A DNA stretch of 64,000 nt, from NCBI RefSeq assembly GCF_004331175.1, contig NZ_SJOD01000001.1, forward strand, positions 558,001 to 622,000, read 5' to 3'. Every line of letters begins with the position of its first letter. The stretch's first letter is position 1. The DNA is from Acinetobacter sp. ANC 4178 (GTDB taxonomy: Bacteria; Pseudomonadota; Gammaproteobacteria; Pseudomonadales; Moraxellaceae). The notes below the pieces were generated by a model. The model was not told the origin of the DNA. It saw only the letters and a list, made by a program, of their open reading frames with translations, and did no database searches. Positions 54,176 through 56,402 of this stretch are shown here, one piece after another. The translations under genes were made by a program, and so were the position numbers.

Positions 54176-54276
54176 AATCTCCCCTAACCCCTCTTTTAAA
54201 AAGAGGGGGACTTTCGCGTATCACTTGAATTACGTGACAGCTCCTCCCTTTTTTAAAGGGAGGTTGGGAGGGATTT
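54176..54276. repeat. Double-hairpin repeat, left copy
   Basis: About 101 bp made of two palindromic hairpins: CCCCTCTTTTAAAAAGAGGGG near 54188-54208 and CCTCCC-T/A-GGGAGG near 54243-54263. The spacer is more variable. The last 36 bp (54241-54276) match the inverted copy at 55863-55898 with one difference. Its right edge forms part of the stop codon of the SIR2 gene. It looks like a dispersed MITE- or REP-like element. Confidence 0.88.
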
Positions 54277-55786
54277 ATAAAGTCTCATATTTTTTAAAAT
54301 CATAAAGACATAATAATTTTTTATAATTTGAATCTAAATCACCATCAATTTTTACTAGATAATTTTTTAAATCATCAGGCGAAAGTGAATTATTAAAAAC
54401 TTTATAAAATATATAATCAATTTTATAGCTTTCAGGAATATTTTTAGTAGACAAAATATCATCAATATTATTTAAGCTGTGAACATCAAATCTACTTAAA
54501 CTAGTTTTCAGATTATTTGTAAGCTTTAATTTTTGCTGAACTTTTAGAATCTCTGCTTTTTGCAAATCAGGAACTAGATGTACAAACCCAAAGATAGGAA
54601 ACCAATGTGATTTAGCTATTGGGAACTCATCGATCAACTTTATCAAATTTTCACTTTCATTTGCAATAATATCAAAATAATCAATTATTAACTGCGATGA
54701 ATCCGTATATGTATATTCAATAGTAGATTTAGACTTTGGAGAAATAGCCAATATTCTTTCTGAATTTTTTAATTGATCAATATCCTCTGCAATACTAACT
54801 TTTATGGTTCCACCTGAAGTTATATCCTTAACATTATCTAATACACGTCTAATTTCATAAGTTGATACTGGTAAGCTTAATGACTCTAATGCACGGTATA
54901 ATTCAATATAGTTATCTGTTTTAAGTTTATTTATTCGTAAAGGATAACCATGTACATCAATATCATGATCTAATATTTCTAAAGAATCTGATCCCTCTTG
55001 GTATTCTACAAGTAAAAAATTATTTCTTATTAATTCTGCTTGTTCTGAATTAAATTGTACATATTTAAAAATAGTACTTAGAATTTTTTTTATATTTGTA
55101 TCATTAACACTGTAACCTAAAAATACTATTGGATTATGAACAAATAGAGAAATTAATTGTGCTCGAATTAAATCATATCTCTGATCAAAATCTGCATAGT
55201 CTTCTGTCGTAAAAACTAATTCTTCTGGATTATCAACACTTCCATGAATTTTATATACCGAACCATAGGGATTACTTAATAATATATTATTTCCAACTAA
55301 CGGTTCAAAATCTGTAACATCTTCTATTAATTTATCATAATTTGTTGTGATTATTGATGATATGTTTTTGGACAACAAATTAAATACTTCCAACTCATCG
55401 CTCTTTCCATTTCTTTTATCTAAATTTTTTAATAATGAAGCTATATAAATTTTAAATTTATCAGAAGTAATGCCTTCACCACTTTTACGATAATATTCAT
55501 CATTTATATCTTTGAACTTTCCATTACGATCTTCAGAAACTTGACGATTAAATTCCTCCTGTAAAAAAGAAGCTAATTGCATGAAATCATAGTTTCCTGA
55601 TTTTCTGTCGTAAACTCGTCCTTTTAGATCATAAAAAAACTCATTGTTTCCTTTTAATTCAAATGCAATTTGTTTTAGAAGCCCTTCCCATGAGTATGAA
55701 TTTTCAAGATAACGTAAACTAAAACCTGTACCAATAAAGAGTACAGGATGGTTTTTATAATTATTAATAAAATCAAATATATCCAT
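54275..55786 (-). CDS. SIR2-like domain protein, putative NAD-depleting defence effector
   Basis: A 503-residue protein. The N-terminal SIR2-like domain (about 10-285) has NAD-binding GTGFS (19-23), ITTNYDKLIED (TTNYD 147-151), the catalytic-type His in KIHGS (181-183) and FLGYSVND (223-229). The C-terminal 210 residues are helical without recognised motifs. SIR2 domains of this type in Thoeris, DSR and SIR2-HerA systems degrade NAD during phage infection; that this protein does so is inference. The gene is very A+T-rich. It is flanked on both sides by inverted copies of a palindromic repeat, and no HerA, Argonaute or TIR partner is adjacent. Confidence 0.85.
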   Translation of the reverse strand: MDIFDFINNYKNHPVLFIGTGFSLRYLENSYSWEGLLKQIAFELKGNNEFFYDLKGRVYDRKSGNYDFMQLASFLQEEFNRQVSEDRNGKFKDINDEYYRKSGEGITSDKFKIYIASLLKNLDKRNGKSDELEVFNLLSKNISSIITTNYDKLIEDVTDFEPLVGNNILLSNPYGSVYKIHGSVDNPEELVFTTEDYADFDQRYDLIRAQLISLFVHNPIVFLGYSVNDTNIKKILSTIFKYVQFNSEQAELIRNNFLLVEYQEGSDSLEILDHDIDVHGYPLRINKLKTDNYIELYRALESLSLPVSTYEIRRVLDNVKDITSGGTIKVSIAEDIDQLKNSERILAISPKSKSTIEYTYTDSSQLIIDYFDIIANESENLIKLIDEFPIAKSHWFPIFGFVHLVPDLQKAEILKVQQKLKLTNNLKTSLSRFDVHSLNNIDDILSTKNIPESYKIDYIFYKVFNNSLSPDDLKNYLVKIDGDLDSNYKKLLCLYDFKKYETL

Positions 55787-55862: not shown

Positions 55863-55969
55863 AAATCCCTCCCAACCTCCCTTTAGAAAAGGGAGGAGCC
55901 TCACGAATCAAAAACCATCATCAAATTCACGTGAAGTCCCTCTTTTTTAAAGAGGGATTTAGGGAGATT
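55863..55969. repeat. Double-hairpin repeat, right copy (inverted)
   Basis: About 107 bp, reverse complement of the left copy at 54176-54276. The inner 36 bp (55863-55898) differ from it at one position. The outer hairpin (55934-55969) matches with a few changes and indels, and the 35-bp spacer has diverged. Its outer edge overlaps the end of the DUF559 coding sequence and supplies the stop codon. Confidence 0.88.
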
Positions 55970-56321
55970 CTTTCAAACAATATAAATAAATCTGTTCCAC
56001 CACAGCATCAGTTTCAGTCAAAATCTGCCTGTTACTAAACCTCACCACCACAAGCCCCAACTCACTTAAAGCCTCATCTCTTGCCTGATCAGCCTCCAAT
56101 CCATCTTCTGTGTAATGCTGCCCGCCATCACACTCAATGACCAAATTCACTGTTGGACAGTAAAAGTCCACGATAAAGTTAAGAATTGGCTTCTGCCGAT
56201 AAAACTGCAATCCTAAAATCTGTTTACGCCTTAACCTCTGCCATAGCAGTTGTTCCGCATCGGTCATATTGTTGCGTAAATCACGCGATGGAAGTTTTAA
56301 GTTCTTGTTATAAGGTTGCAT
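55959..56321 (-). CDS. DUF559 endonuclease-like protein
   Basis: A 120-residue protein of the DUF559 family, related to Vsr and other PD-(D/E)XK nucleases. It begins MQPYNKNLKLPSRDLRNNMT, with the typical TDAEQLLWQRLRRKQILGLQF segment. The probable nuclease core is FIVDFYCPTVNLVIECDGGQHY (Asp, then Glu-x-Asp-Gly-x-x-His). The C-terminus ends FSNRQILTETDAVVEQI. ATG at 56321 is used; a GTG one codon upstream is possible. The last codons and stop lie inside the repeat copy at 55863-55969. Its natural substrate is unknown. Confidence 0.88.
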   Translation of the reverse strand: MQPYNKNLKLPSRDLRNNMTDAEQLLWQRLRRKQILGLQFYRQKPILNFIVDFYCPTVNLVIECDGGQHYTEDGLEADQARDEALSELGLVVVRFSNRQILTETDAVVEQIYLYCLKESP

Positions 56322-56402
56322 CACGACGCTCTTTTTTTAAATATTCTTTTAAGAATCTTGGCATAATATCCACCAGAGAATAACAATGCACGAAACATCA
56401 TC

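Follow-up and report, generated by a model that had tools for sequence, protein, structure and literature searches.

DUF559 genes and their adjoining tail-and-hairpin repeats: a likely nuclease partner for a REP-like repeat class

DUF559 genes usually adjoin short repeat units composed of a C-rich tail and a hairpin, and the clade of a DUF559 protein predicts which type of unit lies beside its gene. The sequence evidence for this pairing is strong; an enzymatic role for the protein is likely, and is inferred in the absence of biochemistry. In the reading we prefer, and consider probable, DUF559 is the cognate nuclease of a REP/REPIN-like class of repeats, analogous to RAYT/REPIN systems and unrelated to them in sequence, with recognition, cutting and copying of the repeat all being inferred.

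The units in our starting sequence belong to the published BoxC / PIT / intrastrand-triplex (TM) class, repeats which have been published from hundreds of genomes and whose source is unexplained. DUF559, a widespread and little-studied family, tracks these repeats in position, type and presence, and the origin of BoxC/PIT/TM thus becomes directly testable in E. coli K-12 through one gene, ycjD. If our reading is true, it suggests a function for DUF559, as a family which makes or maintains a common repeat class. RAYT/REPIN would also gain a second counterpart, based on an unrelated enzyme whose fold is mostly known from restriction, mismatch repair and homing.

DUF559 genes usually adjoin tail-and-hairpin units

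The starting point was a stretch of 64,000 nucleotides from Acinetobacter sp. ANC 4178, referred to here as the window. Its relevant features are as follows.

55959..56324, minus strand: DUF559 (PF04480) gene, 121 aa (ORF call; PF04480 E 3.3e-34)
55936..55969, minus strand: right repeat unit, C-rich tail then hairpin (TCCCTCTTT/AAAGAGGGA) (reading and pattern search)
55863..55896, plus strand: left repeat unit, inverted partner of the right, with tail CCCTCCCAA and hairpin CCTCCCTTT/AAAGGGAGG (pattern search and finder)
55863..55969, no strand: inverted pair formed by these units, REPIN/BIME-like, ~107 bp, 'tail-hairpin ... hairpin-tail'
54176..54276: a further inverted pair of this repeat type, comprising units 54176-54209 (plus) and 54243-54276 (minus)
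54275..55786, minus strand: SIR2-domain gene (PADLOC candidate defence PDC-S25, E 1.4e-142)

On the minus strand the DUF559 gene ends GAA TCT CCC TAA (E-S-P-stop, 55970-55959) and the right unit reads AATCTCCCTAAATCCCTCTTT-AAAAAAGAGGGAC. By these coordinates, 11 nt of the unit's outer tail lie within the gene, which runs into the unit. The original prediction, that the stop and last codons lie in the outer edge of the right repeat with the gene directed into it, therefore held. As a BLAST query against its own 3.39 Mb genome, the window pair matched 15 places at E<0.02, which include both halves of certain pairs, and the repeat is thus more than a chance arrangement; 14 of the 15 places do not adjoin any DUF559 gene. 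The same genome contains two strong PF04480 genes and one weak match (L003, E 1.8e-8), which has no adjoining unit. The second strong gene (L001) has, both upstream and downstream, another repeat with CCCTCTCC-type stems, similarly built but distinct from that of the window. The two DUF559 genes of this genome belong to different clades, and each adjoins its own repeat type. We refer to the window kind, whose stem ends CTTT, as type I and to the kind beside L001 as type II; clade I denotes the proteins of the genus which are close to the window protein.

Units were sought elsewhere with a finder whose pattern, 'pyrimidine-rich tail + pyrimidine/purine hairpin', uses the letters of neither type. 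It misses the window's own right unit, the inner stem of which is AT-rich and which was seen by reading and pattern search. Among 80 named loci from many phyla, 75 had a unit within 300 bp of the DUF559 gene, the exceptions being L182, L193, L216, L220 and L239. Dinucleotide shuffles of the same loci, with the gene body excluded, yielded a mean of 1.2/80 and a maximum of 4 over 20 rounds. Far windows of 600 bp held a unit in 24/593 cases, and unit density was 2.52 per kb near the gene vs 0.092 far from it. Units were found in Pseudomonadota, Thermodesulfobacteriota, Chlorobiota and Bacteroidota, as well as in Bacillota, Chloroflexota, Nitrospirota and Cyanobacteriota. These loci were the best 80 of 568 confirmed and are biased toward window-like proteins.

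Within the phylum of the window, a unit occurred within 300 bp at 26 of the 30 best-scoring loci. As these were top-scoring matches, 20 lower-scoring loci were added, of which 17 had a unit (43/50 in all); none was found at the remaining 4/30 and 3/20. The added set held one locus per genome, and one of its genomes, G229, was also represented among the first 30 loci. Flanks of 1,500 bases were assumed for the first 30 loci; the contig of L102 begins near the gene, and its unit lies 12 bp behind the true gene end. In the genus of the window, 66 of 72 DUF559 loci (71 fetched plus the window) had a unit in their flanks, as did 23 of 31 extra genus loci, most of them broken. Units on both sides of the gene were present at many loci.

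Control loci carrying Vsr (PF03852) had units in 0/30 and 0/20 cases (0/50 in all), and in the first 30 no unit was found anywhere in the examined sequence. The possibility that such repeats are an ordinary feature of any gene end is ruled out by this control together with the far windows. Absence of enrichment near DUF559 genes would have refuted the original prediction, and was not observed (75/80, 26/30, 17/20 and 66/72 vs 0/50 for Vsr). Units adjoin most DUF559 loci across phyla, and the window is a single instance of this broad pattern.

Four records outside these counts were also inspected. In Neisseria gonorrhoeae, the organism of the solved structure 3HRL, units start 190 bp downstream of the DUF559 gene, and at this locus (L304, 2005-2699) they recur threefold, once every 281 bp. 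An Azospirillum DUF559 gene has finder-flagged units upstream. The finder flags no unit at Picosynechococcus and phage DUF559 loci. Near the Picosynechococcus gene (L305, plasmid pAQ6), several short-stem, C-rich, hairpin-like stretches missed by the finder can be read on both sides, and it is possible that cyanobacteria have a variant unit type. Relatives of the window protein proved rare by tblastn, in 4/50,697 phage records and 46/72,556 plasmid records, using a single query which misses distant DUF559.

Protein clade, unit type, and copy number

The correspondence between protein and repeat was complete among the typed loci of the genus: clade I occurred with type I in 30/30 and clade II with type II in 35/35. 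Seven of the 72 loci were untyped, no majority label crossed, and one locus (L064) had a single unit labelled II amid type I units. Beyond the genus, a tree of 117 proteins (108 labelled and 9 unlabelled rows, with L102 dropped as an empty row) required 5 changes of the I/II label vs 32.5 for shuffled labels, and 0/500 shuffles were as low. Two of the odd labels on the tree are artefacts of the type rule, which misreads L105 and L171. Many branches of the tree remain open because only 115 columns were kept. An alternative within the original prediction, that the repeat had merely inserted at the gene end, fails to explain why clade predicts repeat type across phyla. Its other suggestion, that DUF559 may recognise or process the repeat, is supported by adjacency and by the match of clade and type, with processing being inferred rather than shown.

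Among the extra genus loci, script labels matched the clade in 18 of the 23 with a unit; the type rule also misreads L287, whose mismatch is a label artefact. In the true mismatches, L276 and L277 and, separately, L282, a clade I gene is broken at its 5' end and a type II pair sits at that end, an arrangement suggestive of one repeat system having inactivated the other's nuclease. A further locus, L270 (1949-2050), pairs a third DUF559 clade of the genus with a third unit type, which has a CTCCCCTTA stem.

The phase of the overlap is also conserved. In 27 of the 72 genus loci, from both clades, the start of the unit precedes the final stop-codon base by exactly 8 nt, and with its start fixed at this point the repeat supplies S-P-stop; by the finder, the stop codon falls within a unit in 29/72. 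E. coli YcjD has the C-terminus RRSPSP-stop, encoded within the stretch CACCCTCTCCCTGAAAGAGCGAGGGGG, which we read as a degenerate unit which the finder does not flag. The only finder-flagged unit at ycjD lies 168 bp downstream of the stop.

Gene presence and repeat abundance were compared in 119 genomes of the genus, in which DUF559 was full in 60, partial in 11 and absent in 48 (E 1e-10). Both repeat types were at zero in 0/71 genomes with DUF559 vs 27/48 without (Mann-Whitney p 1.7e-12), and the 71 DUF559-bearing genomes held 961 of 1,124 pattern matches. Among the 22 genomes with clade I only, none lacked type I and 6 lacked type II; among the 18 with clade II only, 2 lacked type I and none lacked type II. 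The difference of type I minus type II separates these two groups (p 0.014). Type II outnumbers type I in 6/22 clade I-only genomes, type I outnumbers type II in 5/18 clade II-only genomes, and each clade, where present, shows an association with the other repeat type as well (p 2e-4 and 2.7e-5). Given this loose match in copy number, clade is a much better guide to the local unit type than to genome-wide numbers.

A second family, centred on G397 and comprising 198 genomes, was examined using the published E. coli TM pattern. The pattern was present in 21/26 genomes with DUF559 vs 14/172 without (p 9e-15), or 21/26 vs 14/98 when genomes <3 Mb were left out (p 2.5e-10), and 1396 of 1529 TM copies were in DUF559-bearing genomes. 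In genera represented by a single DUF559-bearing and a single DUF559-lacking genome, the comparison gave 169 vs 71 (remnant), 5 vs 1, 17 vs 9 and 77 vs 6 copies, and two further pairs gave 0 vs 0 each. Equal abundance in genomes lacking DUF559, the other outcome which would have refuted the original prediction, was thus found in neither the genus nor the second family.

Repeats did occur without a DUF559 match at E<=1e-10, in 21/48 genomes of the genus and 14/172 of the second family. Among the latter 14, G553 (71 copies) and G451 (2) have short, weak, remnant-like DUF559 matches; G317 has 21 TM copies and no match. Conversely, five DUF559-bearing genomes lacked the TM pattern, the loci L294, L295 and L298 having another unit type next to the gene and L296 and L297 none. 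Presence counts in the genus and in the second family exclude weak matches, of E about 1e-10 and above, by a cut of our own choosing, and the copy-number counts are uncorrected for host phylogeny.

In E. coli, a place covering >=80% of the unit plus ycjD was found in 3,364/5,426 genomes. A sample of 60 rows, with one 231-kb record (H160) left out of the ycjD-minus group, gave 14-29 places in records with ycjD (n=37) and 1-15 in those without (n=22; p 3.8e-10). According to PMC12817139, ycjD is conserved in phylogroups A, B1 and C, and also in ST69 and ST182, with the eef operon in its place in other lineages. Because ycjD follows phylogroups, the E. coli contrast does not constitute independent evidence.

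Repeat class, enzyme, and related systems

According to the TM survey of Holder 2015 (PMC4666352), 262 proteobacterial genomes contain 3,610 copies; inverted A+B pairs occur in E. coli, where numbers differ strongly between strains (29 copies in E. coli 55989, 1 in IHE3034). In vitro the units fold into triplexes, and they mark loci that are unstable; their origin was considered unclear, and no mobility gene had been found adjoining TM in E. coli. The main text of that study contains neither 'DUF559' nor 'ycjD' (supplements were outside our scope). Full-text searches of open-access PMC found no paper connecting DUF559 to repeats of this kind, preprints and most subscription journals being outside their scope; in the literature consulted, no enzyme had been assigned to BoxC/PIT/TM.

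A feature of PIT/TM/BoxC, a hairpin with a third arm mirroring a hairpin arm, is borne out overall by the 139 units near the 80 named loci. The best mirror match of tail to arm averaged 7.07/9 vs 5.41 for shuffled tails, reached >=7 in 100 of the 139 units, and compares with 6.60 for direct matches. Such symmetry fits either triplex formation or a tail which reads the arm, with triplex folding in the cell being an inference. The DUF559-associated units share the architecture of BoxC/PIT/TM (TMECO), and inverted pairs are described for both. In its letters, the published TM pattern CCCTCNCCC-N3-6-GGGNGAGGG-N3-GGGNGAGGG fits the type II-kind units of the second family; the type I stem of the window, ending CTTT, departs from it.

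The enzyme side is consistent with a nuclease. The predicted model of the window protein (pLDDT 90.7) has a Vsr-like nuclease fold, and its closest solved relatives are NGO0050 (3HRL, E 7.9e-8) and the homing endonuclease I-Bth0305I (3r3p, 7.2e-4), with weaker matches to Vsr (1cw0, 0.037; 1vsr, 0.048). Fifteen PDB sequence matches with E 0.29-0.94 were taken as chance. Invariant residues of the DUF559 alignment include E24, D53, E64, D66, H70 and D79. The features of the Vsr-like DUF559 family (a PF04480 match with conserved acidic and histidine residues) are present, nuclease activity itself being inferred. A Pfam scan of the window protein returned only DUF559 and a below-cut-off MTES_1575 match, with no match to a RAYT, that is, to a tyrosine HUH (IS200-like) transposase. 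YcjD belongs to the same Pfam family and has been related to Vsr by Feder and Bujnicki 2005 (PMC1189080); Vsr and I-Bth0305I have the same fold. Vsr acts in mismatch repair and I-Bth0305I has its home in an intron. Vsr genes differ from DUF559 genes in having no such adjoining units (0/50).

Comparison with RAYT/REPIN, already drawn in the original prediction, holds as an analogy. Both have a nuclease gene with short palindromic units on its flanks and dispersed inverted pairs elsewhere, and in both the clade of the enzyme matches the repeat type. They differ in that DUF559 is a Vsr-like nuclease without a RAYT transposase match and that its units have a C-rich tail tending to mirror the hairpin arm; the GTAG tag next to the hairpin is absent, by reading, from all four window units. 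The RAYT (TnpA-REP) side of this comparison is largely general background, and comes in part from PMC3733652. CGTC-tagged REPs, which are palindromic, often paired and without a known dedicated enzyme (PMC3733652), resemble the DUF559 units in being palindromic and paired and differ from them in tag and stem.

Mobility, mechanism, and rival explanations

The units are dispersed, often as inverted pairs, and some E. coli strains carry elements of about 90-125 bp at sites where other strains have none. The pstA-pstB sites differ by one unit (92 bp) bordered by an 8-bp direct repeat; at hrpB-mrcB a pair of about 115 bp stands where the site without it has 13 bp; at phnP-yjdP the sites differ by a pair, 124 bp in length, with an overlap of 3 bp, and in strain AF60 the middle of this pair has apparently been lost. 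No constant target duplication was found over these three loci, and direction remains unsettled at the polymorphic sites, which may reflect insertion or deletion, the latter not being excluded. A candidate fourth site, yhjG-yhjE, proved to be a replacement of the whole region, and no empty site was found among the aaeR-tldD rows. The DUF559 gene, for its part, is often stationary at one locus within the genus: 32/37 clade II loci have a common upstream context and 18/37 a common downstream one, and the largest context clusters of clade I comprise 16/34 loci upstream and 19/34 downstream.

We propose that DUF559, with its Vsr/EDxHD fold, would recognise the tail and hairpin of its own repeat type, either as an extruded hairpin or as an intrastrand triplex, and would nick or cut at the recognised unit. 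Copies of the element may then arise at other sites through repair or replication, accompanied by short duplications or by small losses of target sequence. The gene and its flanking units would represent a mostly stationary master locus and the dispersed pairs non-autonomous copies, as in RAYT/REPIN systems, with an unrelated nuclease. Each step is inferred: recognition from the match of DUF559 clade and unit type, cutting from the Vsr-like fold, and copying from dispersal, copy number and polymorphic sites. A bolder version, toward which we remain slightly sceptical, would posit a separate class of mobile DNA in which restriction-fold (PD-(D/E)XK / EDxHD) nucleases recognise and disseminate an intrastrand triplex or a tail-guided hairpin in many bacterial phyla, and which is the source of BoxC/PIT/TM, including, via YcjD, that of E. 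coli K-12.

Other explanations deserve consideration. DUF559 may be a homing-like selfish nuclease which cuts sites without (or with) a unit, recombination then copying the flanking units or the whole cassette; the repeats would be marks of cleavage or protection rather than transposed elements. The closest solved relatives, NGO0050 (3HRL) and the homing endonuclease I-Bth0305I, favour this reading, as do a Thermosynechococcus intein DUF559 gene classed in the EDxHD homing family (PMC9403480), the three copies of a transposase + DUF559 segment which are recombination hotspots in Legionella (PMC12308824), the units flanking the gene on both sides at many loci, and the alternation of ycjD with the eef efflux operon between fabI and sapF in E. 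coli. We nevertheless regard it as unlikely, as 14 of the 15 repeat places in the window's own genome are away from DUF559, the gene often stays at one locus within the genus, and dispersed pairs at unrelated sites are better explained by copying-out.

A host-serving role, in which DUF559 resolves the hairpins or triplexes of the repeats or repairs lesions within them, would mean that repeat-rich genomes need the enzyme and that adjacency reflects self-regulation or neutral accumulation. The Vsr-like fold is compatible with such a role, as are the in vitro triplexes and unstable loci of TM (Holder 2015, PMC4666352), the repair-like action of the Caulobacter DUF559 protein VsrA, read in an in vivo study as mismatch repair tied to a methyltransferase, and the inclusion of a Deinococcus DUF559 gene in a table of expression changes without a cytosine methyltransferase. 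However, neither the same-phase gene end inside the unit in both clades nor the prediction of repeat type by clade in unrelated hosts is explained, and we consider this reading very improbable. Coincidence, with another enzyme spreading repeats which collect at gene ends including those of DUF559, could draw on the position of the examined E. coli units between many unrelated genes and on the genomes which hold repeats without DUF559. It is all but excluded by the Vsr control (0/50), the far windows (24/593 vs 75/80) and the match of clade and type. The preferred reading, of a nuclease paired with its own repeat, accordingly remains the one we favour.

Two loci offer further minor observations. 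Between fabI and sapF in E. coli (L241, L242, L243), either ycjD and a unit or the eef RND efflux operon is present, according to lineage, and a half-unit-like stretch is readable near fabI in L242. In the window, the SIR2-domain gene sits between both repeat pairs, and its stop codon touches the outer edge of a unit. We regard this gene, which lies next to DUF559, as a neighbour, its membership in the repeat/nuclease system being unproven. It was found in only 2/34 other clade I loci (tblastn, about 3.4 kb each), and the slot between the repeat pairs may thus hold changing cargo.
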